Below, in pieces: positions 37,901-52,310 of a DNA stretch of 55,879 nucleotides. Within the stretch, counting starts at the first letter, position 1. Each line of letters starts with the position of its first letter. Location: positions 1 to 55,879 of IMG/VR virus record IMGVR_UViG_3300036761_000980. The stretch is one strand, 5' to 3'. This DNA is from a virus. Under the pieces are notes generated by a model. It ran no database searches, had not been told where the DNA came from, and worked only from the letters and a program-made list of their open reading frames with translations. The translations under genes were made by a program, and so were the position numbers.

Positions 37901-39676
37901 GGAACAAGCGGTAGTTCAGGATCTTCTGGTACAAGTGGCGGTTCGGGTTCATCTGGAACATCAGGTACAAGCGGATCATCTGGAACATCTGGTACGAGTG
38001 GCACATCTGGAACATCTGGTACGAGTGGCACATCTGGAAGTTCGGGATCATCTGGAACATCTGGCACAAGTGGATCTAGCGGGTCTTCTGGAACAAGTGG
38101 ATCTTCTGGTACATCTGGAACAAGTGGTTCATCAGGATCAAGTGGCACATCTGGAAGTTCAGGATCATCAGGCACATCTGGAAATTCTGGATCATCTGGC
38201 ACAAGTGGATCTTCTGGTAGTTCTGGAACATCTGGAACAAGTGGGTCTTCTGGGTCATCTGGAACAAGTGGATCGTCTGGAAGCTCAGGAACATCTGGCA
38301 CAAGTGGATCTTCTGGAAGTTCAGGGTCATCTGGCATAAGTGGATCTTCTGGAACTAGTGGGTCAAGTGGATCTTCAGGAACTAGTGGAAATTCTGGATC
38401 ATCAGGAACATCTGGCACTAGTGGATCGTCTGGTACTTCAGGAACATCTGGTACTTCTGGTACAAGCGGATCTAGCGGGTCTTCCGGTACAAGCGGTAGT
38501 TCAGGAACATCTGGAACAAGCGGCACATCTGGATCTAGTGGTTCATCAGGAACAAGCGGATCGTCTGGTAGTTCTGGAACATCTGGCACTTCAGGGACAT
38601 CTGGTATTTCTGGTACAAGCGGATCTAGCGGGTCTTCTGGCACAAGCGGTAGTTCAGGATCATCTGGTACTTCAGGAGTGAGTGGAACATCAGGTTCATC
38701 GGGTAGTTCAGGCACAAGTGGGTCAAGTGGTTCATCTGGAACAAGCGGATCATCTGGTAGTTCTGGAACATCTGGAACAAGCGGTACATCTGGATCTAGT
38801 GGTTCATCTGGAACAAGCGGATCATCTGGTAGTTCTGGAACATCTGGAACAAGCGGCACATCTGGATCTAGTGGTTCATCAGGAACAAGCGGATCATCAG
38901 GTAGTTCCGGAACATCTGGCACAAGTGGTACATCTGGAATAGACGGATCATCTGGTACATCAGGATCTAGTGGTTCTTCAGGTTCAAGTGGTGCGGGTGT
39001 ATCAGGTATAACCGATAGTGATTTTTATTATGACATCGATACAAATACATTATATACTCCTAATATAACATTAAATGGTTCAACTATAATTGCAACTAAT
39101 CTTCCTGTTGGATCCGATAATGGGACTAAAATAAGTTTAAGTGGTGATACATTTTATGTTGTAACAGGAATTACGACTGGTACATCTGGAACATCTGGAA
39201 CTTCAGGAGCATCGGGTTCATCTGGAGAATCTGGATCACATGGAACATCTGGAACTTCAGGTACAAGTGGATCAAGCGGCTCGAGTGGTTATAGTGGTAC
39301 AACATATTCTGGATTTTATTATTTTAATGGATGTTTATACGCTGATTGTGTAATTATAAATGGATCATATAAAATAAATTCAGTAATATTAACAGGTCTT
39401 ACTAGTACAGGATCAACAATTACATTAATATCAAAAACATATTGTAGCGGGGCGTTTTTTGATTATTATGTACAAGATGGGTCTAATATGAGAATAGGTA
39501 CAGTAATGAGTGTTTGGGATGGTACAAATATATCATATACTGATTATTCAACTACGGATATTGGAGATTCATCGCCAGTCTCATTCACTGCTAGTATAGA
39601 TGGATCTAATGTAAAATTAGAAGCAGAGATATCATCTGGAACTTGGACAATAAAACTCGGTATTAGATTAATATAA
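31961..39676 (+). CDS. Giant collagen-like fibre protein (2571 aa)
   Basis: The N-terminal attachment domain is about 147 residues. Four Gly-X-Y segments (about 2100 residues, mainly GTS, GSS and GIDGSS) are broken by small folded modules: DKYQTTSSTCLTISG at about 1281-1362, and two near copies of FYYDIDTDTLYVPNITLN at about 1440-1490 and 2350-2405. A C-terminal head (from about 2445) resembles other fibre tips. Gly at every third position implies a trimeric collagen-like rod. At the textbook rise of 0.286 nm per residue it could approach 0.6 micrometre. It is very poor in Pro and rich in Ser/Thr, so glycans may stabilise it. I infer a long tail or head fibre. Confidence 0.85.
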   Translation: MALQKINWTQIDSAHVPSGLTIDLGSIPTPIDGTYTETLFIGEDGNEEVLHNFFWYLTGCTGNTGASGDRYRTTSTTQLTISGGTQTLIVGTGLSYIPGQSLIIAKDGYNYMEGTVVSYTGSTGEMIGNITSFSGSGTYNSWYVNLGGAQGADGTSGTSGISGTSGSSGSSGTSGSSGSSGTRGTSGSSGSSGTSGSRGTSGSSGSSGTSGTSGSSGTRGTSGTSGSSGSSGTKGTSGTSGSSGSSGSKGTSGSSGSSGTSGLSGTSGSSGSSGTSGLSGTSGSSGSSGISGSNGTSGTSGSSGSSGSSGTSGIDGSSGTSGTSGSSGSSGTSGTSGTSGSSGTSGISGTSGSSGSSGTSGTSGSSGSSGTSGTSGSSGSSGTSGSSGTSGTSGSSGTAGSSGSSGTSGQDGTNFGTSGTSGTSGTSGTSGTSGTSGEQGIIGPPGLAGTSGTSGIDGSSGTSGIDGSSGTSGSSGSSGTSGTSGTTGTSGTSGSSGTAGSSGSSGTSGQDGTNFGTSGTSGTSGIDGSSGSSGTSGSSGSSGTSGEQGVIGPPGLSGSHGTSGSSGSSGTSGIDGSSGTSGIDGSHGTSGTSGIDGSSGTSGSSGSSGVGTSGTSGTSGTSGTSGIDGSSGSSGTSGEQGVIGPPGLSGTSGSSGSSGTSGVDGSSGTSGTDGTSGSSGSSGSSGVGTSGTSGTSGIDGSSGTSGIDGSSGTSGIDGSSGTSGIDGSSGTSGTSGFGSSGTSGSSGVGTSGTSGTSGEPGIIGPPGVPGTSGTSGSSGSYGTSGTSGSSGSSGTSGIDGSSGTSGIEGSSGTSGIDGSSGTSGIDGSSGTSGSSGSSGVGTSGTSGTSGTSGTSGSSGSSGTSGDQGIIGPPGVSGTSGTSGSSGTSGSSGSSGISGSSGTSGTDGTSGSSGSSGTSGSSGSSGVGTSGTSGTSGEQGVIGPPGLSGSHGTSGSSGSSGTSGTSGTSGTSGSSGSSGIDGSSGSSGTSGTSGSSGSAGTSGSSGSSGVGTSGTSGTSGTSGTSGIDGSSGTSGSSGSSGTSGTSGSSGSYGTSGTSGSSGSSGTNGTSGSSGSSGTSGSSGSSGINGSSGSSGSSGSSGSSGSSGSSGSSGSSGSSGSSGSSGSSGSSGTSGLSGTFGTSGTSGSSGSYGTSGTSGTSGTSGISGSSGTSGSKGTSGTSGTSGTSGLHGLSGSHGTSGSSGSSGTSGTSGIDGSSGTSGPGGSSGTSGIDGSYGTSGTSGASGSSGESGSHGTSGTSGASGSSGESGSHGTSGTSGTSGISGDKYQTTSSTCLTISGITQTLTVLSGLSYSAGQSLIIGFDGSNYMTGTVTSYNPSTGAMVGNILSTVGSGFYCDWDVNLGGAQGADGSHGTSGTSGTSGSSGSSGTSGSSGSSGTSGSSGSSGTSGTSGTSGIDGSSGTSGSSGSSGSSGAGVSGTTDNDFYYDIDTDTLYVPNITLNGSIIIATNLPVGDDNGTKIGLSGDTFYVVTGITTGSSGTSGTSGASGSSGESGSHGTSGTSGASGSSGESGSHGTSGTSGSSGSSGSTGTSGSSGSSGTSGTSGISGTSGSSGSSGTSGTSGSSGSSGTSGTSGSSGSSGTSGTSGTSGASGTSGSSGSSGTSGSSGSSGTSGSSGSSGTSGTSGSSGSSGTSGTSGTSGSSGTSGSSGSSGTSGTSGSSGSYGTSGTSGTSGSSGSSGTSGSSGSSGTSGTSGSSGSSGTSGGSGSSGTSGTSGTSGSSGSSGTSGTSGSSGSSGTSGSSGSSGTSGTSGSSGSSGTSGSSGSSGTSGTSGTSGSSGSSGTSGTSGTSGISGTSGSSGSSGTSGTSGSSGSSGTSGTSGSSGSSGTSGTSGSSGSSGTSGTSGISGTSGSSGSSGTSGTSGSSGSSGTSGSSGSSGTSGTSGGSGSSGTSGTSGTSGSSGSSGTSGTSGSSGSSGTSGTSGSSGSSGTSGTSGSSGSSGTSGTSGSSGSSGTSGSSGSSGTSGSSGSSGTSGGSGSSGTSGTSGSSGTSGTSGTSGTSGTSGTSGSSGSSGTSGTSGSSGSSGTSGSSGTSGTSGSSGSSGTSGSSGSSGTSGNSGSSGTSGSSGSSGTSGTSGSSGSSGTSGSSGSSGTSGTSGSSGSSGSSGISGSSGTSGSSGSSGTSGNSGSSGTSGTSGSSGTSGTSGTSGTSGSSGSSGTSGSSGTSGTSGTSGSSGSSGTSGSSGSSGTSGTSGTSGISGTSGSSGSSGTSGSSGSSGTSGVSGTSGSSGSSGTSGSSGSSGTSGSSGSSGTSGTSGTSGSSGSSGTSGSSGSSGTSGTSGTSGSSGSSGTSGSSGSSGTSGTSGTSGIDGSSGTSGSSGSSGSSGAGVSGITDSDFYYDIDTNTLYTPNITLNGSTIIATNLPVGSDNGTKISLSGDTFYVVTGITTGTSGTSGTSGASGSSGESGSHGTSGTSGTSGSSGSSGYSGTTYSGFYYFNGCLYADCVIINGSYKINSVILTGLTSTGSTITLISKTYCSGAFFDYYVQDGSNMRIGTVMSVWDGTNISYTDYSTTDIGDSSPVSFTASIDGSNVKLEAEISSGTWTIKLGIRLI
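32401..35806 (+). repeat. Collagen-like Gly-X-Y tract 1 (about 1135 residues)
   Basis: Nine-base units encode GTS, GSS and related triplets. Six Pro-containing modules (E-Q/P-G-I/V-I-G-PPG) and six G-V-G register breaks occur between about 33270 and 34990. The codons for Ser and Gly vary, so the DNA is less identical than the protein. Confidence 0.9.
36048..36270 (+). repeat. Collagen-like tract 2 (about 74 residues)
   Basis: A short Gly-X-Y run between two folded modules, starting with GAQGADG as tract 1 does. Confidence 0.85.
36439..38999 (+). repeat. Collagen-like tract 3 (about 854 residues)
   Basis: Almost pure GTS/GSS triplets with rare GGS, GNS and GIS. It has neither the Pro modules nor the G-V-G breaks of tract 1. 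All other reading frames are also largely open because of the repeat. Confidence 0.9.
39178..39294 (+). repeat. Collagen-like tract 4 (about 39 residues)
   Basis: Short run (GASGSSGESGSHGTSG) leading into the C-terminal head domain. The same sequence follows the first copy of the YYDIDT module. Confidence 0.85.
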
Positions 39677-39677
39677 A

Positions 39678-42449
39678 ATGGCAAATTACGGAGTAGTTAT
39701 TGATCAAAATGCACCACATCTAGTGGAATTAAAACCTCGAACAGTAGAAGGTGGATATGGATTATTATATAACTGGTATGTAGTAAAAGTGACTCCAGTT
39801 TCTATTGCGCCCGCAGGATGGCATGTGCCAACAATAACAGAACTGCAAACATTATCAACATTTCTGGGTGGAGATGCAATTTCAGGAGGAAAATTAAAAG
39901 AAACGGGTTTGGATCACTGGGATACACCAAATACAGGAGCAGATAATTCCTCAGGATTTACAGCTCTCGGTGCAGGAGCTAGAGATGTTGATGGTACATT
40001 TTGCTGCATTAAAGAGATATTTGGAGTATGGGCATCAACGGAAACAGGAGGTGATGGTGATTGTTTAGCATTACAAAAATATGATGATGCTACTATAATT
40101 ACGACAGTTGCCAAAAAAACTGGTATCTCTATTCGTTTAATTAAAAATAATTCTATCGATCCCGGTACAGTAACAGATATTGATGGTAATGTTTATCCTA
40201 CTGTCAAAATTGGTACTCAGGTATGGATGGCATTAAATTTGAAAGTTACAAAATATAATGATGGGACTTCGATTCCGGAAATTACTGATAATGCTGCATG
40301 GTCAGGAGATACCGCAGGTGCACTATGTGCATATGATAATAACTGGGATTATGTGTGGAATCGTTATCTAATTTATTTATTACCTAACGCTCCCGTGATT
40401 GAAAATCAATCATTTCAGATATACGAAGAACAATCATCTGGAACAACAGTTGGTCATGTTATTTCTACCGATCCAAATAATATTACATACTCAATAACTG
40501 CAGGAAATACTGGAAATGCATTTATAATTAATGCATCAACTGGATATTTAACAACAAATACAGTATTAGATTTTGAAACCCTTAGTGGATATTCATTAAC
40601 AATAGAGGTTGTAAATAATTCATTTCCATCTTTATCAGATACAGCTATTGTTAGTGTTGAAGTATTAAAATTATATCATGTATGCGTCGATAATGGATTA
40701 CATTTCAATGGTTATTCCGAAGATTTAATTGGATTATTAACTGTTGGCGTTGTTCATGCAACAACTGGAACCCTTACAGATTATGTAATAGAATGGCATT
40801 TAAACACTATAAGTGGATCAACTGTATTTATTACTGGCAATAGCGGAAATACGGATCCTTCTATCCAGTCGTTCCACCCAATAAATTCCGAATTAGTTCA
40901 AGCGGGTGAATTATATCCTGTTGTGCGTTATGCTAATGTTAATGGAATATTATATAGTGCTTATTCTAATCTTGGTTATTTATATTCGCCTGATTTATTG
41001 ACTTGTTTACCATCAATTACTGTTGTTTCAATGACTTGTTCAAATGGATCCGCAGGTTTATTTGGACATACTGTTCAATATATAAATACTACGCAACCAA
41101 GTCAACTCGCCAATAGATCATTGACATATGGATTAAATCTTGATAGTTCTTCGAAACAAATAAGTTACCAATTTTATGGATTTGCTATAGCTGACAGAAT
41201 AACTACGTCATATTGTACAACTGGCGGTACGAAAACAGTAATAGATGACTGGGTTGTAGGATTGGATTGCACTGGAAATACGTTTAATTCTTTACCTAAA
41301 TTATACACCAATCAATGGATAAAGAGATCTTTAAGTCTGACTGGATTTACATATCAAAGCGGTGATTATTTATTATTCGATACGTTCCCGTCATATAACG
41401 CTCCTGGAAATACTGATACTAACTGGCGATTAAGTATAAAATGTTTTAGTGGTGATAATTTAATTGATTTTGGATTCCAACCAAATACTGTTAATGATAT
41501 TGATACTGGAGCAACAATGAATTTAGTATGGAATACAGGTAATTGTTCTTATGATTTAACAGTTATAACAGGTGTACCAAGAGTTCCATTATCATATAAT
41601 AGTGATATGTACCATTATACAGAAGCTGGGGCCGGTGGTTCTTACGAGTGGACGACTGGCCAAACTATTTCTGTTCTTCAATATACAGGAAGTTCATTAA
41701 CTTGGGTGCCATATACTGCATATGGTAGTCCTTATTTACTTAATGGTGTATTAAATATAAAATTAACTGGTGGTACTCATAATCTTCTTTATACGTTTAC
41801 AGATGCGATGGATTATAATCATTATAAAACTGGATATACAACAAATATTACAAGTTCTCATTGGACTGATTGGACATCAGATGTAAATAGTTTAAATCAT
41901 TATAAATTTATAAATGATGTATTTAAAGTTTCAATGACAAGTGGTGACACTTTTTATACCTATGGATTATATGTTGATAGCCAATCAGTATTCACATTTG
42001 ATGATGTAAATAAAACAATTTCAATTGCACTTGTTCCTCAAACTGGTGTATATACTGGAGTTGCTTGTGATAAATCATCTGATAATTTTAATTGGATTAT
42101 AACTTATACGAATAATTTATACTCTGGAACAACTTGGGATTTAAATACAATTTGGGGTACTCAAAATCCATTCCCATTTATGTATCTTACTTATTGGCCA
42201 TATGTTTATACGGAAGCAACTATGCAAACATATATGTTTCTTTATAATAACTTATTGGATACAAGCACGCCATTAAGTCCTGAATGGTTCTTATCTTCTG
42301 GAGTTTGGTATTTCTGGAAAGTTTGCCTCAATTTAAAGATTGATAATGTGGTAGATCCATTAAATAATTATAGTGTATATAGTGGATTAAATTCAGATGG
42401 TAGTGTAAGTAGTCCAGTTGTTTGGACATTAATTAAAAGAGTACCGTAA
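39678..42449 (+). CDS. Fibre/adhesin with permuted FISUMP and cadherin-like domains (923 aa)
   Basis: It starts one base after the collagen gene stop codon. Residues about 26-155 contain YGLLYNWYVVK, PAGWHVPTITELQTL, GGKLKETGLDHWDTPNTGA and FTALGAGARDVDGTF, the second half of a FISUMP domain. Residues about 160-225 contain TDIDGNVYPTVKIGTQVWMA and KYNDGTSIPEITDNAAW, the first half. A cadherin-like domain follows at about 236-330 (FQIYEEQSSGTTVGHVISTD). The rest (about 335-923) is beta-rich and unrecognised. FISUMP domains occur on Bacteroidetes cell surfaces, so acquisition from a host is plausible. It is probably a receptor-binding or fibre-tip protein. Confidence 0.75.
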   Translation: MANYGVVIDQNAPHLVELKPRTVEGGYGLLYNWYVVKVTPVSIAPAGWHVPTITELQTLSTFLGGDAISGGKLKETGLDHWDTPNTGADNSSGFTALGAGARDVDGTFCCIKEIFGVWASTETGGDGDCLALQKYDDATIITTVAKKTGISIRLIKNNSIDPGTVTDIDGNVYPTVKIGTQVWMALNLKVTKYNDGTSIPEITDNAAWSGDTAGALCAYDNNWDYVWNRYLIYLLPNAPVIENQSFQIYEEQSSGTTVGHVISTDPNNITYSITAGNTGNAFIINASTGYLTTNTVLDFETLSGYSLTIEVVNNSFPSLSDTAIVSVEVLKLYHVCVDNGLHFNGYSEDLIGLLTVGVVHATTGTLTDYVIEWHLNTISGSTVFITGNSGNTDPSIQSFHPINSELVQAGELYPVVRYANVNGILYSAYSNLGYLYSPDLLTCLPSITVVSMTCSNGSAGLFGHTVQYINTTQPSQLANRSLTYGLNLDSSSKQISYQFYGFAIADRITTSYCTTGGTKTVIDDWVVGLDCTGNTFNSLPKLYTNQWIKRSLSLTGFTYQSGDYLLFDTFPSYNAPGNTDTNWRLSIKCFSGDNLIDFGFQPNTVNDIDTGATMNLVWNTGNCSYDLTVITGVPRVPLSYNSDMYHYTEAGAGGSYEWTTGQTISVLQYTGSSLTWVPYTAYGSPYLLNGVLNIKLTGGTHNLLYTFTDAMDYNHYKTGYTTNITSSHWTDWTSDVNSLNHYKFINDVFKVSMTSGDTFYTYGLYVDSQSVFTFDDVNKTISIALVPQTGVYTGVACDKSSDNFNWIITYTNNLYSGTTWDLNTIWGTQNPFPFMYLTYWPYVYTEATMQTYMFLYNNLLDTSTPLSPEWFLSSGVWYFWKVCLNLKIDNVVDPLNNYSVYSGLNSDGSVSSPVVWTLIKRVP

Positions 42450-42533: not shown

Positions 42534-45506
42534 ATGAGTAATGAATTTGTAGCCCGTAATGGTGTAATCATTAAATCAATTGCAACTGGTACAACCGAAA
42601 CTAAGATTTTAGTAGTGGATGATACTGGACTTATGAAATTAAGAACATCAATTTCTTTAGGCGGAACATCTGGAACAAGCGGAACATCTGGAACTTCAGG
42701 TTCAAGTGGTTCATCTGGAACAAGCGGATCGTCTGGTTCATCTGGTACATCTGGCGGTTCTGGTTCTTCAGGTACAAGCGGAACTTCAGGTTCGAGTGGT
42801 TCATCTGGCACAAGCGGATCATCTGGTTCATCTGGCACAAGCGGATCATCTGGTTCATCTGGAACAAGCGGAAGTTCAGGTTCTAGTGGTTCATCTGGAA
42901 CAAGAGGAACATCTGGTAGTTCTGGATCTTCTGGAACTTCTGGAACTAGTGGGACATCTGGTAGTTCTGGATCTTCTGGAACTAGTGGGACATCTGGTAA
43001 TTCTGGATCTTCTGGAACTAGTGGGACGTCTGGTAGTTCTGGATCTTCTGGAACTAGTGGAACATCTGGTAGTTCTGGAACATCACCAACTGGAGGAACT
43101 GGAGGTGATTCACTTTGGTATCTTATACCAGAAACTACTACAATAGCTCCTATAGCTAATGAGTCAATTCAAGTTAAAAATATTACTATTGGAGTAGAAA
43201 GTGATAACATGATTAAAGGTCTGGATTCGGAGACAGGAGGGAATCTTCAAATTTATGGAGGGGATAGTTTAATTGACATAGATGGTAGTAAAGGAGGAGA
43301 TGTTTGGATTGTAGGCGGATCTTCCAGTAATACCACTGGAGAAACAGGAGGAGATGTTTGGATTATAGGTGGATTTTCGCCAAATCCTGATCTATATAAT
43401 AGGTCTAATGTTTTTATAAGTAATGATATAGCGTACCTTCGATTTAAAACTATAGAAAATAATCAGATATGGTTTAGCCCAGGCGGAGAAGGTAGCGGCG
43501 CTGGTCAGAATTTTTATCTTGCAGGGGGAAATAGTGAATCAGATCCCGCAGGCGACATAATAATAAAAGGAGGAGATCAAATAGAAGCAACTACTGGCGG
43601 CCGCGGCGGAAATGTTATTATTTCTGGTGGAACTACTAGCAATGCTGGTGAACTTTATGGTGGAGACATTTATATTATTGGGGGAACGAGAGCAAATTCC
43701 GATATAAATAATAGGTCTAAAGTTTATATTGGTAATGAAAAATGGAGCCTTGAACTTAAAACTATGTATCTACCTGAAGTACTTGGAGATTATGGTGGTG
43801 AAACGATATGGCTTAGCCCAAGAGATCAAGATACGGGTAATACGCTTAATGGATATAGTTTTATACTTCAAGGAGGAAATAATAATAATGATCTAATACC
43901 CGAAATGCTTGATCCTATGGATGCAGGATCTATATTGGTAGTCGGAGGATCTCAAGGAGCAAGTAGTGGAGGTAAAGGTGGAGATGTTATAATTCAAGGC
44001 GGACTCACTACAGCTAGTAGTCCTACTGGAACTTCAGGTGGACATGTTTATATTCAAGGTGGATCTGGTAACACTATTGGAGGACGTGTTTATATTATTG
44101 GAGGCACTACTAATGCTGAAGGGGGATCAGGTTTAGGAGGTGATGTTGTATTTCAGCGTGGATATGGCGTAAGTGTTGGAGGAGAATTTTTATTTGAAAA
44201 TCTACCAGAAGCAACTGAAGGAGATCCTTATGTTGTTTCTTATAATTCATCAAGTGGTAGAATAAGTTATAGAGCAATATCTGGCGTTACTGAATTACTT
44301 TGGTATGAATCAGGTGTAAATTTAATATCTCCTGTAACTGCTTCTAATGGTATTGGTGTTGGTGATGTTCGGATCGGTGGCACTGGCGGAGGTAATCAAA
44401 TTTATGGAATAGAAGGTACTGGCGGTGAACCTGGCGGTAGTTTGATTGTGCATGGAGGAGATGCTTCATCTAGTGGAGCTGGGGGTGGATTCCTTGAGCT
44501 TCGTGCTGGAGATACTTTAATTAATGATCAACTTGATGGTGGATATGTTGAGATTCATGGTGGACATAATAATAATGGTACTGCTGGTACTGGGGGACGT
44601 GTTTATATTACGGGTGGAGGTGTTAGTAGTAGTAATGGATATGGTGGAGATATAATTATTTCACCTGGAATATGTGATAATAATAGTACCCTTAGTATGG
44701 GTGATGTTTTTCTCGGAACTAATCCCAATGATCCCGAAGCCTTTACCATAAAAATAGAGGATTTACCTGATGGACAGGTATTAATAGCATTAGAAGATGA
44801 TTATACACACGATTTTATAATTCGAGGAGCAAACACTTCTGGTAATACTCTAAATGACAATGGAGGTAACTTATATTTACTTGGAGGCGACGAATATACA
44901 ACCAATTCTGGCACTGGAGGTAGAGGTGGTGATGTTTATATTACTGGAGGAACAACAAATAGTCATTTTGCAATAGGTGGAAGTATTAATATTTTTGGTG
45001 GAGATAGTGAAAATGCTATGGGTGGTGATGTTTTTATAGCTGGGGGGCATGGCACTAGTGGTTATGGAAATGTGTATATTGCAAATCCTGTCGATGAAGG
45101 TGGATCATTACCAGTTGATTATGGCACTAATCTTCTTAATGTTTTATATGATGACGAGTCGGGGAAATTATCATATAAACAACCAACCGAACAGGTAGTT
45201 ACTTTTAATACAGGAACAACAACGATTGATTGGACAGTTTCAGAATATGCATATCTCGAACTAACTGATAATGTTTCTCTAATTCTCTTTACTAATCCAA
45301 ATAAAATAGGTGAATATTTCTTAAATATTAAACATATTGGTGACTCTTGGGAAGTAAGTGAATGGGATAGTGACATTTGGTGGCCACAAGGTGTATATCC
45401 CGTATTGTCAGATACCGAAAATGATATTGATCATTTTAGATTTTATTGGAATGGTAGTATTTATCTTGGCCTACTTATGTCTAAGTTTAGATCTATGTTA
45501 ACATAA
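42534..45506 (+). CDS. Collagen-stalked fibre with Gly-rich beta-repeat head (990 aa)
   Basis: A short N-terminal anchor (about 1-42) begins MSNEFVARNGVIIKSIATGT, a form found in fibre-attachment domains. A collagen-like stalk (about 43-183) and then about 650 residues of repeats built on GGDVxIxGG follow, for example GGDVWIVGG, GGNVIISGG and GGRVYIIGG. These probably form a beta-solenoid with one strand per repeat. The C-terminus (TIDWTVSEYAYLELTDNVSL) looks like a tail-fibre tip. The gene shares the collagen vocabulary with the 31961 gene. Confidence 0.75.
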   Translation: MSNEFVARNGVIIKSIATGTTETKILVVDDTGLMKLRTSISLGGTSGTSGTSGTSGSSGSSGTSGSSGSSGTSGGSGSSGTSGTSGSSGSSGTSGSSGSSGTSGSSGSSGTSGSSGSSGSSGTRGTSGSSGSSGTSGTSGTSGSSGSSGTSGTSGNSGSSGTSGTSGSSGSSGTSGTSGSSGTSPTGGTGGDSLWYLIPETTTIAPIANESIQVKNITIGVESDNMIKGLDSETGGNLQIYGGDSLIDIDGSKGGDVWIVGGSSSNTTGETGGDVWIIGGFSPNPDLYNRSNVFISNDIAYLRFKTIENNQIWFSPGGEGSGAGQNFYLAGGNSESDPAGDIIIKGGDQIEATTGGRGGNVIISGGTTSNAGELYGGDIYIIGGTRANSDINNRSKVYIGNEKWSLELKTMYLPEVLGDYGGETIWLSPRDQDTGNTLNGYSFILQGGNNNNDLIPEMLDPMDAGSILVVGGSQGASSGGKGGDVIIQGGLTTASSPTGTSGGHVYIQGGSGNTIGGRVYIIGGTTNAEGGSGLGGDVVFQRGYGVSVGGEFLFENLPEATEGDPYVVSYNSSSGRISYRAISGVTELLWYESGVNLISPVTASNGIGVGDVRIGGTGGGNQIYGIEGTGGEPGGSLIVHGGDASSSGAGGGFLELRAGDTLINDQLDGGYVEIHGGHNNNGTAGTGGRVYITGGGVSSSNGYGGDIIISPGICDNNSTLSMGDVFLGTNPNDPEAFTIKIEDLPDGQVLIALEDDYTHDFIIRGANTSGNTLNDNGGNLYLLGGDEYTTNSGTGGRGGDVYITGGTTNSHFAIGGSINIFGGDSENAMGGDVFIAGGHGTSGYGNVYIANPVDEGGSLPVDYGTNLLNVLYDDESGKLSYKQPTEQVVTFNTGTTTIDWTVSEYAYLELTDNVSLILFTNPNKIGEYFLNIKHIGDSWEVSEWDSDIWWPQGVYPVLSDTENDIDHFRFYWNGSIYLGLLMSKFRSMLT
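42661..43085 (+). repeat. Collagen-like tract (about 141 residues)
   Basis: GTS/GSS triplets with one GTRGTSG, a GGS and a GNS. The second half contains nearly identical 45-base units (GTSGTSGSSGSSGTS), pointing to recent expansion. Confidence 0.9.
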
Positions 45507-45548: not shown

Positions 45549-46778
45549 ATGAAAATATTATTAATTCAAAAATTTTCAATTATAGAGCCTCTTGGTTTAA
45601 TGGTTATTGGAAAAGCAATGATGGATGAGGGACACGATGTTCATTATTATCTTTATCATGGAAAAAGAATACCTCTTTATAATATTGATTTAAGAGATTT
45701 TAATTTGGTGGGATTTAGTACATATACAGGTAATCATATTGAAGTATATGAGGCTTGTAAAGAAGCAAAAAAATATGGTGTAATAACAGTAATTGGAGGC
45801 CCACATGCATCTTTTTTCTATAAAGAATGTAAAGAATATGCTGATTATGTATTCAGAGGTGAAAGTGTATTATCTTTTCCAAATATGGATGATAAAAAAA
45901 TCTATCCATTAGTTAATCCTGATTTGTTAATTCCTGATAGAGAAAATTTTTATTATTATTCGCCGATTCATAGAGATAATCGCATAAAAAATATAATGAC
46001 ATCTTTTGGTTGTCCATTTAGTTGTACATATTGTTATAATTCTCTATACAAAGAACTATATCCTGATGGTAAAGTACGATTAAGAACGGTTGACTCGATT
46101 ATTAAAGAAGCAAATTCATTAGATGCAGAATTAATATATTTCCAAGATGATTTTTTTGGATATAATAAGAAATGGTTAAAAGAATTTAATGAAAAATGGG
46201 GTAAAAGGCCATATCATGCCCAAATGAGAATTGAAACTCTTGATGATGAGAAACTTGATTTATTGATTGATAGTGGGTGCGTTGGTGCCACAATTGCAAT
46301 TGAAACATATGACGAAGAATATAGAGAAAAGGTATTAAAAAGAAAAATGCGAAATGATGTAATTCTTGTAAATTGTAGAAGATTATTGGACGCAGGAATA
46401 AAATTAAGAACAGAACAAATGCTCGGACTTCCAAATACAACATTTGAAGATGAATTAAATTTATTAAAATTAAATTGTCATATTAATCCAACAATTGCGT
46501 GGACAAGTATATTTCAACCATATCGTGGTACAGAATTAGGGGAATATTGCGTTAATAATAATTTATACAACGGAAATAATGAAGATGTTGATGATTCATT
46601 TTTTAAAAATACTGTACTAAATTACCCTAAAGAACGGAAAGAAGAAATAGTAAAATTACAACAAATATTTGCTTTATGCTCGCATATACCAAATGGATGG
46701 GAATATGCCGACCAAATAATAAAACATAATAACGATAATTTAAAAGAACACTTATATTCAATATTGTATAGAACATGA
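45549..46778 (+). CDS. B12-binding-domain radical SAM enzyme (409 aa)
   Basis: The N-terminal Rossmann-like B12-binding domain (about 1-130) has LGLMVIGKAMMDEGHDVHYY and VIGGPHASFF but no canonical D-x-H-x-x-G. The radical SAM core has the cluster motif C155-x3-C159-x2-C162 in CPFSCTYC. Later motifs (ELIYFQDDFFGYN, GVGATIAIETYDEEYREKVL in outline) match class B radical SAM enzymes. Such proteins methylate or rearrange unactivated carbons, often on glycans or natural products. ATGA overlap with the next gene places it in the glycosylation operon. The substrate is unknown. TATATTTA lies four bases before the start. Confidence 0.82.
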   Translation: MKILLIQKFSIIEPLGLMVIGKAMMDEGHDVHYYLYHGKRIPLYNIDLRDFNLVGFSTYTGNHIEVYEACKEAKKYGVITVIGGPHASFFYKECKEYADYVFRGESVLSFPNMDDKKIYPLVNPDLLIPDRENFYYYSPIHRDNRIKNIMTSFGCPFSCTYCYNSLYKELYPDGKVRLRTVDSIIKEANSLDAELIYFQDDFFGYNKKWLKEFNEKWGKRPYHAQMRIETLDDEKLDLLIDSGCVGATIAIETYDEEYREKVLKRKMRNDVILVNCRRLLDAGIKLRTEQMLGLPNTTFEDELNLLKLNCHINPTIAWTSIFQPYRGTELGEYCVNNNLYNGNNEDVDDSFFKNTVLNYPKERKEEIVKLQQIFALCSHIPNGWEYADQIIKHNNDNLKEHLYSILYRT

Positions 46779-49501
46779 AAATATTAGCGCATTGTTCATT
46801 TATAGGCACAACAGGATATGCTAACCACACTAGATCATTTTTTTGTGCATTAAACAAATATCATACTGTTAAAGTACGAAATTTAACTATTGGCAATGGA
46901 TGGAAAGGAATGAACAACACCCCGCACGACGATGAACCATATATTACAAAGGAAATGAAGGATATGTTAATTCTTCAAACTCTTTTCAATAATGATAAGT
47001 CCAGAACGGATTATCCGATGTATGATTATAAGGGTGATTTTAAACCTGATGTACATATCATATTACAAGATATGGATAATTATTATTTTTATGAAAATTA
47101 TGACGGATACAAAATAGGATTTTGTGTTTATGAATCAACAAGATATCCTGATCATTTTTTTCAGCGTTTATCATATTTTGACGAAATGTATGTTCCAACG
47201 CAATGGCAATTTGATTCTCTGGTTGAACAAGGATATCCCATTGAGAAGATTAAAATTGTTACCGAAGGTGTAGATATCGATGTGTTTAAACCTGCAAAAA
47301 AAATTATTAAAAAAGATAAATTTAGATTTTTATTATTTGGTAGATGGGATTATAGAAAATCAACAACTGAAATTATTAAAGCGTTTGGAGAAACATTTAA
47401 AGGTAATAATAATGTAGAACTTGTTTGTTCTGTTGAAAACCCATATCCAAGTGATGAAACACGATCTACCGCCGATAGAATTAAAAAATATAATGTTGAT
47501 TATGATAACATAAAATTTCTTGATTTTGTAAGTAGAAAAGAATATGTTGATTATTTGCAGCAAGGAGATGTTTTTGTTTCATGTGCGAGGAGTGAAGGAT
47601 GGGGATTACCTCTTTGTGAATCAATGAGTTGTGGTACTCCATCAATTTATTCAAATTGGGGAGCACAACTTCAATTTGCCAGAGATAAAGGTATTCCTGT
47701 TAAAATTTCACATATTAGACCCGCAAATATTGGTGATAAAGAAGTTGGCGGCGAATATTGTGAGCCAGATTTTGAAGATCTAGTTGTTCAAATGAAAAAC
47801 GCATATGAGAATTATAATGATTATAAAAAGAAAAGTTTAGAAGAATCAACATTAATACATAATGAATTTAATTGGGATAAAGTTGCAAAAGACGCTTCTA
47901 AAATCTTAGAAAAAAAAACCGATCCGTTTATTTTTGTTACAGCGGGAAATTTAGAATATATGCCGACGATTGAAAAATTAGTGGAATCCCTGAATGAATT
48001 TTCTAAAAATAAGGTTTTAGTATATGGAGTGGATTGTGATGTTCCATTCGAGTCGCCAAATATGATTAAACGAAGAATAAACCCATCTAAACACTCCAAA
48101 TATGATAGATGGTACTGGAAGCAGTATGCGTGTATCGAGTCATTAAATGAGAACTATGATCGTTTTATGTGGATCGATGGGGATGTTGTTGTAAATTATA
48201 ATATCGATACTATTGAGAAATATTTTCCACAAATTGAAAATTATCCATTATCCGATATTCATATACCAGAAGAATTTTCAGGATATTATATAGATGAAAA
48301 TAATAATAATAAAAACCAATTATTTAATGAAAATCTATGTAAATTATGGAATATAAACATTTCAAAGCCATATATGCATATCTGTATGTTTATTTATAAT
48401 AAAAATTGTAAATGGTGGTTTAATGAAATAATCAAGGAATACTTGACAGTTGATTTAAAATTATATGAAACATATTTCCTATGGAACGATGAGAGCATTG
48501 ATAATGGATTAAGGTGGAAATATGGATTTAAAAAACATCTTCCGTTATCTAATTTTGACACATCAGGGTATGATGGCGATGATGGATTTACTAAAGGAGT
48601 AATAAATGATTTTTATAAATTTTGGAACGAACCTGGCCCTCAAAATTTTGATAAAGTTTATGGATATAAATTTATTCCCAAGGATAAAGATCAAATAATT
48701 TATTTTCATGGGAATAAAGATCGTGAAGTTTCAGATAAAATGATTGAATTTATTAAATTTAAAAGAGATAATAATTTCTATCAATCTGAATATTTCTATA
48801 CCGATATTTATAACCTTAAAAATCTTGGAGAAATTAAAGATTTTGAAGGCGGCACAATGGATATTGCAAATAAATGTGGATGGGATTATGCGGTTTATCA
48901 TGAAATATATAATTTAAGGGATTATTACCTCAATCGAGAGAAAAGAATACGCGATGGTGATATTGTTGTTGATTTAGGCGGTAATATCGGTGTATTCACC
49001 AGATGGGCGTATAAAGAGGGGGCGAGTAAGGTAATTACATTTGAGCCCGATAAAAGATATTTTGAATTACTTCAATTAAACTCCGATCCTCGCACTGTAT
49101 TATTTAATGCCGCAATGAGTGATTCAATTGGTACAACCACATTATATGAAAGTGATCATCTTGGAGGATCAAATATTTTAGGGATACTAAATTGTACAAG
49201 AAGTTATAGTGTTAGAACATATACATTAGATTATCTATTTGAAACAGAATTAATTAATAAAATAGATTTTTTAAAAGTTGATATTGAAGGCGCCGAACAT
49301 CAGGTTTTTAAGGGAATATCGGATGAAAATTTAATGAAGATAAAAGCAATAGGAATGGAATATCATAATTGGGGCGGCGTCGATTATACGGAGGAACAAA
49401 GAACAGAGTTTATTAAAAGATTGAATAAATTAGGATTTAATTCACATATTTTATTTCTGGGATCAAATAATGTGCTACAAATGTTATATTTTTGGAGATG
49501 A
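46775..49501 (+). CDS. Three-domain fusion: GT4 glycosyltransferase, GT-A glycosyltransferase, FkbM methyltransferase (908 aa)
   Basis: Residues about 1-375 form a GT-B enzyme of GT4 type, with FLLFGRWDYRKSTTEIIKAF near 190 and the nucleotide-sugar motif EGWGLPLCESMSCGTPSIYS near 274. Residues about 383-640 are a GT-A-like domain with FVTAGNLEYMPTIEKLV and the D-x-D of MWIDGDVVV near 465. Residues about 725-908 are an FkbM methyltransferase, with VVDLGGNIGVFTRW, ITFEPDKRYFELLQLN and FLKVDIEGAEHQVFKG. The fusion implies sequential sugar addition and O-methylation on one substrate. I infer the Ser/Thr-rich fibre proteins encoded upstream. Confidence 0.82.
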   Translation: MKILAHCSFIGTTGYANHTRSFFCALNKYHTVKVRNLTIGNGWKGMNNTPHDDEPYITKEMKDMLILQTLFNNDKSRTDYPMYDYKGDFKPDVHIILQDMDNYYFYENYDGYKIGFCVYESTRYPDHFFQRLSYFDEMYVPTQWQFDSLVEQGYPIEKIKIVTEGVDIDVFKPAKKIIKKDKFRFLLFGRWDYRKSTTEIIKAFGETFKGNNNVELVCSVENPYPSDETRSTADRIKKYNVDYDNIKFLDFVSRKEYVDYLQQGDVFVSCARSEGWGLPLCESMSCGTPSIYSNWGAQLQFARDKGIPVKISHIRPANIGDKEVGGEYCEPDFEDLVVQMKNAYENYNDYKKKSLEESTLIHNEFNWDKVAKDASKILEKKTDPFIFVTAGNLEYMPTIEKLVESLNEFSKNKVLVYGVDCDVPFESPNMIKRRINPSKHSKYDRWYWKQYACIESLNENYDRFMWIDGDVVVNYNIDTIEKYFPQIENYPLSDIHIPEEFSGYYIDENNNNKNQLFNENLCKLWNINISKPYMHICMFIYNKNCKWWFNEIIKEYLTVDLKLYETYFLWNDESIDNGLRWKYGFKKHLPLSNFDTSGYDGDDGFTKGVINDFYKFWNEPGPQNFDKVYGYKFIPKDKDQIIYFHGNKDREVSDKMIEFIKFKRDNNFYQSEYFYTDIYNLKNLGEIKDFEGGTMDIANKCGWDYAVYHEIYNLRDYYLNREKRIRDGDIVVDLGGNIGVFTRWAYKEGASKVITFEPDKRYFELLQLNSDPRTVLFNAAMSDSIGTTTLYESDHLGGSNILGILNCTRSYSVRTYTLDYLFETELINKIDFLKVDIEGAEHQVFKGISDENLMKIKAIGMEYHNWGGVDYTEEQRTEFIKRLNKLGFNSHILFLGSNNVLQMLYFWR

Positions 49502-50160
49502 GTACACTGGATATAATAGCAAATTCATATGGAACAGATAAATCTTCCTATATGCACAATTATTGTGTTAAATATGAAAAATATTTACCATTTAATAGAT
49601 ATGATAATTTAAAAATATTAGAAATTGGAGTATTCCGAGGAGAATCATTAAGAACATGGAAAGATTATTTTTATCGTTCACAAATTATCGGTATTGACAT
49701 ATTACCCGAATGTAAGAACTACAAAGAAGATAGAATTAATATTGAAATTGGATCACAAATAGATGGTAATTTTTTAACTGAAGTTTCAAAAAAACACGGG
49801 CCATTTGATATGATATTAGATGATGGATCACATATGAATTCACATGTAATATACTCATTTGAACATTTATTTCCATCAATTACAACTGGCGGAGTTTATA
49901 TTATTGAAGATTGTACCACATCATATTGGAGTGATTTTGAAGGAGGATATTTGAAAGAAGGAACATCAATGGAATATTTTAAAAAATTAACCGATGATAT
50001 AAATTTTAGAGGATTACAATATGATGTAAACGGAAAGTTTCATCGGTACAGAAAAGAATTGGATCTTATTCCACTTTCACAAGAGCAACAACCATCCTGT
50101 AGAGTAGACATAGAATCAATAATTTTTTTAAACGGAATAATCATAATAACAAAACGATAA
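49498..50160 (+). CDS. Class I SAM methyltransferase, MycE-like sugar O-methyltransferase (220 aa)
   Basis: ATG at 49498 overlaps the previous stop (ATGA); a TTG at 49492 is less likely. The sequence has LDIIANSYGTDKSSYMHNY, ILEIGVFRGESLRTWKDYF (SAM site, about 42-60), IIGIDILPECKNY and FDMILDDGSHMNSHVIYSF. This is the layout of MycE/macrocin-type enzymes that methylate sugar hydroxyls using metal-bound Asp residues. Together with the FkbM domain it gives two methyltransferases for the glycan. Confidence 0.78.
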   Translation: MSTLDIIANSYGTDKSSYMHNYCVKYEKYLPFNRYDNLKILEIGVFRGESLRTWKDYFYRSQIIGIDILPECKNYKEDRINIEIGSQIDGNFLTEVSKKHGPFDMILDDGSHMNSHVIYSFEHLFPSITTGGVYIIEDCTTSYWSDFEGGYLKEGTSMEYFKKLTDDINFRGLQYDVNGKFHRYRKELDLIPLSQEQQPSCRVDIESIIFLNGIIIITKR

Positions 50161-52310
50161 TGTCACAATTCAACGAAGATATTTTTGTAATCGATTCTTG
50201 GCCAAATAATGAGTCAAGAGAAAATGAGTTAATCACCTTAATAGAGAGATTAAGAATATATGATATACCTATTTTATTAGCTGGCCACTACCCAATTAAA
50301 CCTGAAATACAGAAAATGGTAGATTATTGCCTTTATGATAGAAACAATCCATTGTTAATTACTGATGAATTTGCGGATTTTGGCGTTAATAGTGTCAGGT
50401 GGTCAGATACGAAGGATTTTCGTATTGAAAATCTTCGTGAATATCATCATGATTATGCGGTATGGCAAACAATGAAAAATGCTTTTAATTTTTCTAAATA
50501 TCTTGGTAAAAAATATATTCATTTTATAGACGATGATAATTTACCGCATCCTATACAGTATCGCCAGACATTTTTAGAAAGAATTAGAGATTTCGATGTG
50601 GTTATTACTGAGTACGATGAAGGTTCGTCATTAATAACAAATGAAAAACCTTATTGTACAACATATATCTTTTCAATTAGAACAGATATCGCGGTGAAGG
50701 TATTTGACACAATAAAAACTAAAGATGAATTCTTTCGTAATAAGCCAGATAGATGGCAATTAGAGAAAAATTTTTTAAATTCGGCTCGAAAAATTACTAA
50801 TAGTATCTATGTTTGTAAATACATTCCCAATAATAATGAATTAAACAGACACGCAGTATGGGAAAGGCCAGGAATGGACAGAAATAGAATGGATATTCAA
50901 CTTTACTTAGCAGTTAACGATATTGATGATTTATATTTACATACTATTTCAGGCGGCGATTACTTAATAGAAGTGTCCTATGGAAATTATAAAAAATTTC
51001 ATAATGTAACGAAGAATAGTATGCTTGTTTATGAGTTAGGTAAATATCAGCAAGGGAATACAATATTTGTATATTATCAGGGCACGGAAATATATAATAA
51101 TCATTTAGATTATGATATTAATAAATTTCGAGGATTAAATAAAATAATAAGAAAAACGGAAACGCCAAAAGAAATGAATAACACACCCCCAGAAATAAAA
51201 ATAAATTTTCTTGACGGAGCATTTGTCGAAATTAAAGAACAGATGAACAGAATATATCGTGTTCAGTTTATTAATAAAAGAAATAATCAAATTGATTTCG
51301 AATTAGATTTAAAAAGTAATCATTGGGCCAGATGTAGTAAAAAATATTATATCAATTGGTTGATAAGAATACAAGGTATCGATAATGATTTTTATTCTGA
51401 GTATGAAATAAATTTAACAAATAAAAGAGTACTAATTAGTTTTGAATCCAAGTCAATAGGTGATACATTAGCATGGATTCCATATGTTGAAAAATTTAGA
51501 GTTGATCATAAATGTATTGTTATTTGTTCAACATTTCATAATAATTTATTTAAAAATCAATATCCTGAAATTGAATTTGTCGAACCAGGAACAACTGTGC
51601 ATAATGTATATGGACTCTATAGATTAGGAGTCTTTAAAAAAACTGGGTATAAACCAGATCCAAACTCACCTAATGAAGTTGATTATGAAAAACATTTAAC
51701 TGATCCAAAGAAAGAACCATTAACTAAAGTGGCATCAGATATATTGGGTTTAGATTATGTGGAAATCAAACCTAAATTACCTGTATTTACACAAGGAAAG
51801 AAAAAAATAGTTTCTATAGGCACCATCTCGACGGCGCAATGCAAATTCTGGAATAATCCCAATGGATGGCAAGAAGTTGTTAATTTTCTTATTGTAAATG
51901 GATATGAAGTTAAATTACTTTCTAGCGAGCCAGATGGATATATGGGCAATACGAATCCTAAAAATGTAACAAAAATACAAAATAAAAAACTTGAAGAAAT
52001 TTTAAAAATAATCCAAGAATCTGAATTGTTTATTGGTATTAGTAGCGGATTATCATGGTTGGCTTGGGGAACGGGAACTTCCACAATAATTATTTCAGGA
52101 TTTACTGATGATTATGTTGAACCACAAGAAGGTATAATAAGGATAATAAATAAAGAAGTTTGTCATGGATGCTGGGGAAAATATAATTTTGATCCCAGCG
52201 ATTGGCGATGGTGTCCAGTTCATAAAGGAACTGATAGGGAATTTGAATGTACTAAAGAAATTTCATCTAAATCTGTAATTTATGAGATAAAATTAATTCT
52301 AAAGTTATGA
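50160..52310 (+). CDS. GT-A domain fused to TibC/Aah-like O-heptosyltransferase (716 aa)
   Basis: The N-terminal domain (about 1-300) is a GT-A glycosyltransferase with the acidic motif HFIDDDNLP near 124. The C-terminal domain (about 370-716) begins before RVLISFESKSIGDTLAWIPY and contains SIGTISTAQCKFWNNPNGWQ, ISSGLSWLAWGTGTSTIIIS and four Cys (668, 671, 685, 697) in EVCHGCW, WRWCPVHKGT and FECTK. This four-Cys pattern is the iron finger of autotransporter O-heptosyltransferases (TibC/Aah), which glycosylate many Ser residues on repetitive adhesins. That makes the repetitive Ser/Thr fibres the most likely acceptors. The gene starts on the last base of the previous stop codon. Confidence 0.8.
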   Translation: MSQFNEDIFVIDSWPNNESRENELITLIERLRIYDIPILLAGHYPIKPEIQKMVDYCLYDRNNPLLITDEFADFGVNSVRWSDTKDFRIENLREYHHDYAVWQTMKNAFNFSKYLGKKYIHFIDDDNLPHPIQYRQTFLERIRDFDVVITEYDEGSSLITNEKPYCTTYIFSIRTDIAVKVFDTIKTKDEFFRNKPDRWQLEKNFLNSARKITNSIYVCKYIPNNNELNRHAVWERPGMDRNRMDIQLYLAVNDIDDLYLHTISGGDYLIEVSYGNYKKFHNVTKNSMLVYELGKYQQGNTIFVYYQGTEIYNNHLDYDINKFRGLNKIIRKTETPKEMNNTPPEIKINFLDGAFVEIKEQMNRIYRVQFINKRNNQIDFELDLKSNHWARCSKKYYINWLIRIQGIDNDFYSEYEINLTNKRVLISFESKSIGDTLAWIPYVEKFRVDHKCIVICSTFHNNLFKNQYPEIEFVEPGTTVHNVYGLYRLGVFKKTGYKPDPNSPNEVDYEKHLTDPKKEPLTKVASDILGLDYVEIKPKLPVFTQGKKKIVSIGTISTAQCKFWNNPNGWQEVVNFLIVNGYEVKLLSSEPDGYMGNTNPKNVTKIQNKKLEEILKIIQESELFIGISSGLSWLAWGTGTSTIIISGFTDDYVEPQEGIIRIINKEVCHGCWGKYNFDPSDWRWCPVHKGTDREFECTKEISSKSVIYEIKLILKL

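Follow-up and report, generated by a model that had tools for sequence, protein, structure and literature searches.

Pathogenic Escherichia coli decorate their surface adhesins with seven-carbon sugars by means of heptosyltransferases of the TibC/Aah kind. These bacterial autotransporter heptosyltransferases (BAHT) are represented by the NCBIfam model TIGR04414 (hepto_Aah_TibC) and by the structures PDB 4rap and 4rb4. Here we describe a gene with a TibC-type domain in a phage: an open reading frame (ORF) for 716 amino acids in virus record IMGVR_UViG_3300036761_000980, of which the full stretch of 55,879 nucleotides is called the window. We consider it likely that this domain O-heptosylates a proline-free, collagen-like tail fibre encoded by the same phage and that products of neighbouring genes extend and methylate the sugar, giving a dense glycan coat.

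According to the accessible part of Yao et al. 2014 (PMC4358343), D110 is the catalytic base of TibC, four Cys bind iron required for the dodecamer, and R286 touches adenine. P300 determines the choice of heptose epimer; Aah has Ser there and takes both epimers. Both enzymes glycosylate Ser, not Thr, in the same account.

The TibC-type domain and its fusion partner

The ORF and its parts are as follows.

50160 to 52310, + strand: GT-A-like domain fused to a TibC-type heptosyltransferase, 716 amino acids, ATG start (profile and fold)
50166 to 50867, + strand: GT-A or nucleotidyltransferase fold, amino acids 3-236 (fold matches of the predicted structure)
50895 to 51155, + strand: predicted beta-rich domain that separates the GT-A-like part from the TibC part, amino acids 246-332 (predicted secondary structure)
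51180 to 52295, + strand: TibC-type heptosyltransferase domain (TIGR04414), amino acids 341-712 (profile; fold match over amino acids 343-716)
51462 to 51464, + strand: D435, equivalent of TibC D110 (alignment; Asp in all 100 tree rows; role from the accessible part of PMC4358343)
52161 to 52250, + strand: four-Cys iron finger, amino acids 668-697 (alignment to TibC C339, C342, C358 and C370; role from the same source)

The original prediction, made from the DNA letters, had placed a TibC/Aah-like enzyme in a phage. Its coordinates matched the ORF exactly, and the Cys residues 668, 671, 685 and 697 and the strings WRWCPVHKGT and FECTK that it quoted were all present. The window carries PHROG phage families for DNA primase, SbcC, SbcD, endonuclease VII, RuvC, a sigma factor and a tail fibre, in agreement with a phage location; no tRNA genes were found in its 55,879 bases. 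The proposed kinship was confirmed by profile search. TIGR04414 matched amino acids 341-712 with 263.3 bits (E = 3.2e-78; curated cut-off 200), a six-frame search of the record gave 265.7 bits, and the sequence of TibC in 4rap matched the 716-amino-acid protein with E = 3.7e-51. Pfam Glyco_transf_9 was also above its cut-off. Pfam TibC_1st (PF21129) scored 16.2 bits against a cut-off of 27; the fold match to TibC nevertheless begins at amino acid 343.

The full-length protein was modelled with AlphaFold2 from a 32-row alignment. The mean predicted local distance difference test score (pLDDT) of 85 and the predicted template modelling score of 0.55 make the single domains usable but not their mutual arrangement. 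The predicted fold of amino acids 343-716 matched residues 21-389 of TibC (4rap_J) with Z 39.5 and 2.2 Å over 357 aligned residues, whereas lipopolysaccharide (LPS) heptosyltransferases reached only Z of about 19-20 against the same model.

In the alignment with 4rap, D110, T226, K230 and W305 of TibC correspond to D435, T558, K562 and W633, and C339, C342, C358 and C370 to C668, C671, C685 and C697. The equivalents of D110, K230, W305 and the four Cys were conserved in all 100 rows of the tree described below. The alignment to the iron-site residues of TibC, together with the superposition, predicts that the four Cys cluster, as had been proposed. R286, the contact to adenine N1, is replaced by I614. 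Arg was present at this position in 23 of the 24 rows of the classic clade vs 10 of the 76 rows of the window's clade (absent in 66). P300 corresponds to S628, the residue found in Aah. The two hydrophobic thumb residues F265-V266 of TibC are Y594-M595 here; of the 76 clade rows, 61 have Y and 64 have M.

The Cys finger had been called diagnostic of autotransporter heptosyltransferases. The relation to TibC/Aah stands, but R286 is not kept and no autotransporter partner gene lies nearby in the window, where the neighbours are collagen-like and FISUMP/cadherin proteins; because such a partner is missing, we did not file the protein as a BAHT proper. It belongs to the TibC family by sequence and fold, not to the autotransporter heptosyltransferases proper.

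The N-terminal part (amino acids 1-335) was also modelled separately, with a pLDDT of 77. The fold of amino acids 3-236 was as close to mannosylglycerate synthase (2y4m, Z 15.3) as to IspD (3okr, Z 15.1), so that GT-A-like is the furthest assignment, with a nucleotidyltransferase not distinguishable by fold. There was no match to a curated glycosyltransferase family in Pfam, NCBIfam or PHROGs; a motif D/E124-x-D126-N127 was conserved among 10 relatives. The GT-A domain originally proposed for this part is compatible with the fold matches of the predicted structure, as is a nucleotidyltransferase; the extension of the first sugar that was suggested for it is hypothetical. The top Foldseek match of the domain was LH3 (1.9e-5). 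LH3 and COLGALT1, with template modelling scores of 0.35-0.39 and a ranking tied with nucleotidyltransferases, are not claimed as relatives.

Pairing of TibC-type genes with Ser/Thr collagen

Two fibre genes of the window precede the TibC ORF.

31961 to 39676, + strand: collagen-like fibre, proposed substrate, 2571 amino acids (Pfam Collagen, 847 bits)
42534 to 45506, + strand: second fibre, possible second substrate, 990 amino acids (PHROG tail fibre)

The first, 10 kb upstream on the same strand, has 687 Gly-X-Y triplets, among them 301 GTS and 266 GSS, and contains 949 Ser, 389 Thr and 25 Pro. The second has 46 triplets, of which 44 are G-[ST]-[ST]. The original suggestion of a phage protein as the substrate is strengthened by this G-T/S-S repeat fibre and by the recurrence of the pairing in other phages, as follows.

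A first viral scan gave 7 TibC loci, and four records came from the phages collection (Microcystis phage Mel-JY01, LR756501, LR756503 and LR756504). A scan of viral records with a 7-row alignment gave at least 595 relatives among 600 candidates, so that TibC-type enzymes are widespread in phages; 80 of these relatives were retained for analysis. The 87 TibC loci formed 64 clusters at 90% identity. We defined an ST-collagen ORF as one with at least 12 Gly-X-Y triplets, at least 40% of them being G-[STA]-[ST]. Such an ORF was present in the locus of 39 of the 64 clusters and was the next ORF within 200 bp in 16. By architecture, it accompanied 36 of 47 clusters with a fused TibC but 3 of 17 with a standalone TibC (ORF below 400 amino acids; Fisher test). 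Over 40 ORFs from phage TibC loci, 6,707 triplets were counted; Ser stood at 80% of Y positions and Thr (46%) or Ser (42%) at X, and Pro made up about 0.6% per position.

For the reverse comparison, viral contigs were chosen by DNA pattern (G-[ST]-S vs G-P-x repeats) and their whole records were searched with TIGR04414. Of 120 ST loci, 100 (from 99 records) were sampled, as were 100 of the 119 GP loci fetched anew; the pattern loci were not filtered, and an ORF with at least 12 triplets was present in 113 of the 120 and 93 of the 119. TIGR04414 was above cut-off in 32 of 99 ST-collagen records (15/49 and 17/50), a count that includes a near-copy of the window, and in 0 of 100 Pro-collagen records (0/50 and 0/50; Fisher p = 1e-11). 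One additional ST record matched under the cut-off. The contrast was also seen among loci below 42% guanine plus cytosine (GC) (23/84 vs 0/25, p = 0.0016) and among records of at least 50 kb (17/30 vs 0/22). The G-[ST]-[ST] repeat pattern itself was found in 31 of 50 TibC records vs 0 of 50 Pro-collagen records. In-locus counts of the pattern loci (8/105 vs 0/93) were superseded by these whole-record searches and dropped because the loci had been cut to unequal lengths. Two other comparison sets were not used: loci with a GT4 domain and no TibC numbered two, both near-copies of the window, and T4-like records selected by terminase were mainly short contigs.

Among the 80 best cellular relatives, ST-collagen ORFs were found in 14 of the 19 most phage-like loci (L412-L430) and in 0 of the 61 others. 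In ten of these loci the ORFs were inspected by eye, and those of eight looked like lipoproteins or signal-peptide proteins: lipobox-like starts in L414, L424, L425 and L428, signal-peptide-like starts in L418, L419, L420 and L422. These eight, from methanotrophs and other Proteobacteria, are small bacterial proteins with G-[ST]-S collagen near a TibC relative, and in L419 the collagen ORF lies 12 bases from the TibC start codon. L412, L417, L423 and L427 have long fibre-like ORFs; these loci may be phage contigs within metagenome-assembled genomes (MAGs).

A quick maximum likelihood tree of 100 TibC domains was split with full support into a classic clade of 24 rows (23 cellular, 1 viral contig) and a mixed phage/bacterial clade of 76 rows (58 phage, 18 cellular). 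ST-collagen accompanied 0 of the 24 and 48 of the 76. The window's own subclade, 11 phage rows, was fully supported and had ST-collagen in all 11.

Other features were seen in these relatives. The 735-kb phage record LR756501 had 1,273 reverse and 5 forward matches to the G-[ST]-[ST] pattern, from one enormous repeat protein or several. A standalone TibC adjoins a 2,318-amino-acid tail-like protein (L039:3-6959), a possible non-collagen substrate that, judged by eye, seems to hold an intein-like insert in its C-terminal part. A terminase large subunit (L005:14511-16645) is apparently interrupted by an intein-like insert, again as judged by eye. Next to an intact TibC, L006:3-1020 encodes a further TibC relative spread over two frames; a NodU-like carbamoyltransferase gene follows downstream. 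Proteins of about 320 amino acids on the minus strand near a real TibC in L067, L069, L070, L073-L075, L081 and L082 were weakly TibC-like (about 50 bits) and are perhaps GT9 relatives.

Proposed modification of the fibre and rival explanations

We propose the following donor, acceptor, order of steps and purpose. Glycero-manno-heptose would be moved from ADP-heptose onto serines of the fibre at 31961-39676, and perhaps of that at 42534-45506. The likely acceptor is Ser in the Y position of Gly-Thr-Ser and Gly-Ser-Ser triplets, a preference suggested by the triplet composition and by the Ser specificity of TibC. The reaction would take place inside the infected cell, before assembly. The GT4, GT-A-like, FkbM and Methyltransf_24 modules would then extend and methylate the first sugar, turning the fibre into a rod densely covered with glycans; this coat may stiffen and protect the fibre or render it adhesive.

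Besides the second fibre gene, the following genes lie between the first fibre gene and the TibC ORF.

39678 to 42449, + strand: FISUMP and cadherin protein adjoining the fibre, 923 amino acids (Pfam)
45549 to 46778, + strand: B12-binding radical SAM protein, with which the proposed glycan cassette starts (Pfam, NCBIfam)
46775 to 49501, + strand: GT4 glycosyltransferase, middle domain and FkbM methyltransferase, 908 amino acids (parts homologous to the L005 fusion)
49492 to 50160, + strand: Methyltransf_24 methyltransferase, 222 amino acids (overlaps both neighbours, including the 716-amino-acid ORF)

FISUMP and cadherin domains are combined in one phage protein (39678-42449) beside the collagen fibre; this protein is probably a tip or adhesin part. 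In L005:270-8849, one ORF of 2,859 amino acids combines TibC with GT4, three FkbM methyltransferases, DUF6625, a PIG-L deacetylase and Methyltransf_24, so that a single chain forms an assembly line for a glycan; segments of it share 27-49% identity with the GT4-FkbM protein of the window. In phage Mel-JY01, one protein of 1,226 amino acids contains GT4, GT-A-like and TibC parts. These fusions argue that the separate genes of the window act on one glycan.

Genes for donor supply were found beside TibC in part of the relatives. In L039, two ORFs right after TibC matched rfaE_dom_II with 103 bits (cut-off 181.5) and rfaE_dom_I with 101.8 bits (cut-off 345); these were the best-scoring NCBIfam models yet under their cut-offs, and the genes are named HldE-like only. 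A pair of HldE-II-like and HldE-I-like genes lies directly downstream of TibC in 11 of the 64 clusters (L039, L047, L048, L053, L055, L057, L061, L063, L064, L066 and L077), and a single half follows TibC in L079 and L090. As TIGR02199 matched in 11 of 14 control genomes, only the tandem pair beside TibC was used. These kinase and nucleotidyltransferase genes are presumed to supply ADP-heptose. In L055 and L066, TibC and the HldE-like pair are followed directly by an ST-collagen fibre; at its C-terminus the L066 fibre has a Peptidase_S74 chaperone domain, which occurs in tail fibres and spikes. An HldE-like gene is also near TibC in two Lachnospiraceae MAGs (L461 and L471). In the 636-kb phage LR756504, GmhA at 430182-430640 (L492) scored 251 bits, above the curated cut-off, 27 kb from its TibC.

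Several results weigh against heptosylation of the fibre. No HldE domain II match was found in the window, and I614 in place of Arg makes the nucleotide of the donor less certain. GmhA was present in just 1 of 40 TibC records, too few to be used as donor evidence, which suggests that the host carries out the earlier steps towards the heptose. The fibre might instead receive another sugar from a TibC-fold O-glycosyltransferase whose donor is not ADP-heptose. The loss of the adenine-recognition Arg in most of the clade would allow this, as would the finding that 36 of 50 TibC records had no match to HldE domain II. We regard this as unlikely: the equivalents of K230, W305 and D110 are invariant, GmhA accompanies TibC in LR756504, and HldE-like pairs follow TibC in clusters (L039, L055, L057 and L063) whose TibC is also without the Arg.

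Other contrary points concern the substrate. TibC was not above cut-off in 67 of the 99 ST-collagen records, most of which are fragments. ST-collagen was absent from the locus of 14 of the 17 standalone clusters, so that either some members act on something else or the fibre is off the contig. The Pro-collagen set was higher in GC and probably came from other hosts, and GC matching weakens but does not remove the contrast. Since genes for fibres and for glycosyltransferases alike accumulate in variable host-recognition regions, the linkage may be partly regional. Carried further, this would make TibC a resident of a variable tail-fibre island that modifies the FISUMP/cadherin or another tail protein, with collagen as a bystander, as the standalone clusters and the non-collagen neighbour in L039 might suggest. 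It is quite improbable given that Pro-rich collagen fibres, likewise in fibre regions, lacked TibC altogether, that ST-collagen and TibC are often directly adjacent, and that bacteria show a separate pairing with small secreted-looking collagens. The least probable alternative is an enzyme that excludes other phages by altering glycans of the host envelope (LPS core or O-chain) or a protein on the host surface, the role most often ascribed to phage glycosyltransferases encoded in host-recognition regions. Bacterial relatives pair with small secreted ST-collagens by appearance, the gene pairs with ST- and not Pro-collagen, the fold is far closer to TibC than to LPS heptosyltransferases, and the nearest characterised enzymes modify proteins (PMC4358343, accessible part), although the domain is also a distant relative of GT9/WaaC, methyltransferases and glycosyltransferases cluster in this region of the window, and such a role is suggested for pelagimyophage glycosyltransferases in the accessible part of PMC7029224.

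If the fibre is heptosylated, the sugar might have a structural role. Hydroxyproline stabilises animal collagen, and galactosyl-threonine in worm collagen is a precedent for a sugar-stabilised triple helix. O-heptosyl-Ser at Y could replace hydroxyproline and stabilise the 687-triplet proline-free chain as a rigid, protease-resistant rod, and the sister branch could make glycosylated collagen lipoproteins on the surfaces of methanotrophs and other Proteobacteria. The nearly Pro-free fibres, with Ser at about 80% of Y and Thr or Ser at about 88% of X, and the lack of TibC in the Pro-collagen records led us to this idea, which we hold as tentative and on balance doubtful; stabilisation of a proline-free triple helix by sugar is speculation.

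Comparison with known systems

The collagen of BclA, a GXT repeat with proline in it, is the target of other glycosyltransferases, and the mimivirus collagen hydroxylase/glycosyltransferase and human LH3 and COLGALT1 act on hydroxylysine. BclA of Bacillus spores is likewise a glycosylated collagen-like protein, and the mimivirus enzyme, like the human ones, represents collagen-directed glycosylation (PMC8968730 in its accessible part, for BclA and mimivirus). Unlike BclA, the TibC-linked fibres are almost free of Pro and rich in Y-position Ser. Mycobacteriophages also have virion proteins with glycans (work cited in the accessible part of PMC12619734); there the C-termini of capsid and tail-tube proteins are glycosylated, whereas here the enzyme family is another and the protein is a collagen-like fibre.

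A phage homologue has already been labelled Aah/TibC: A0A6J5SVC1, 924 amino acids, from an uncultured Caudovirales phage (UniProt "Glycosyltransferase Aah/TibC"), is 44% identical to the N-terminal domain. This is a database name, with no substrate or system seen attached to it. In a search of titles and abstract openings, with preprints and most subscription journals outside it, we found no report on TibC-type enzymes in phages or on heptosylated collagen.

If our explanation is true, TibC-type enzymes extend beyond enteric adhesins: a second, large branch, present in phages and in environmental bacteria, specialises in collagen-like Gly-Ser/Thr-Ser repeats. It would give a function to phage glycosyltransferase clusters commonly read as LPS modifiers, and would predict glycoprotein tail fibres, which studies of recombinant fibres would overlook. 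A cassette of enzyme, donor pathway and repeat substrate would be a simple genetic system for glycosylated collagen in bacteria. The replacement of hydroxyproline by a sugar in a triple helix would also become testable.

The closest known system remains TibC/Aah. The whole domain is alike in sequence and fold, with the catalytic Asp, the Lys, the Trp and the four Cys kept. The window protein differs in that it is phage-borne and belongs to a sister clade. New in comparison with TibC/Aah are, for the same catalytic domain, a partner of a different class (a collagen-like fibre in place of an autotransporter), the loss of Arg286, and fusion to other glycan modules, here the GT-A-like domain.

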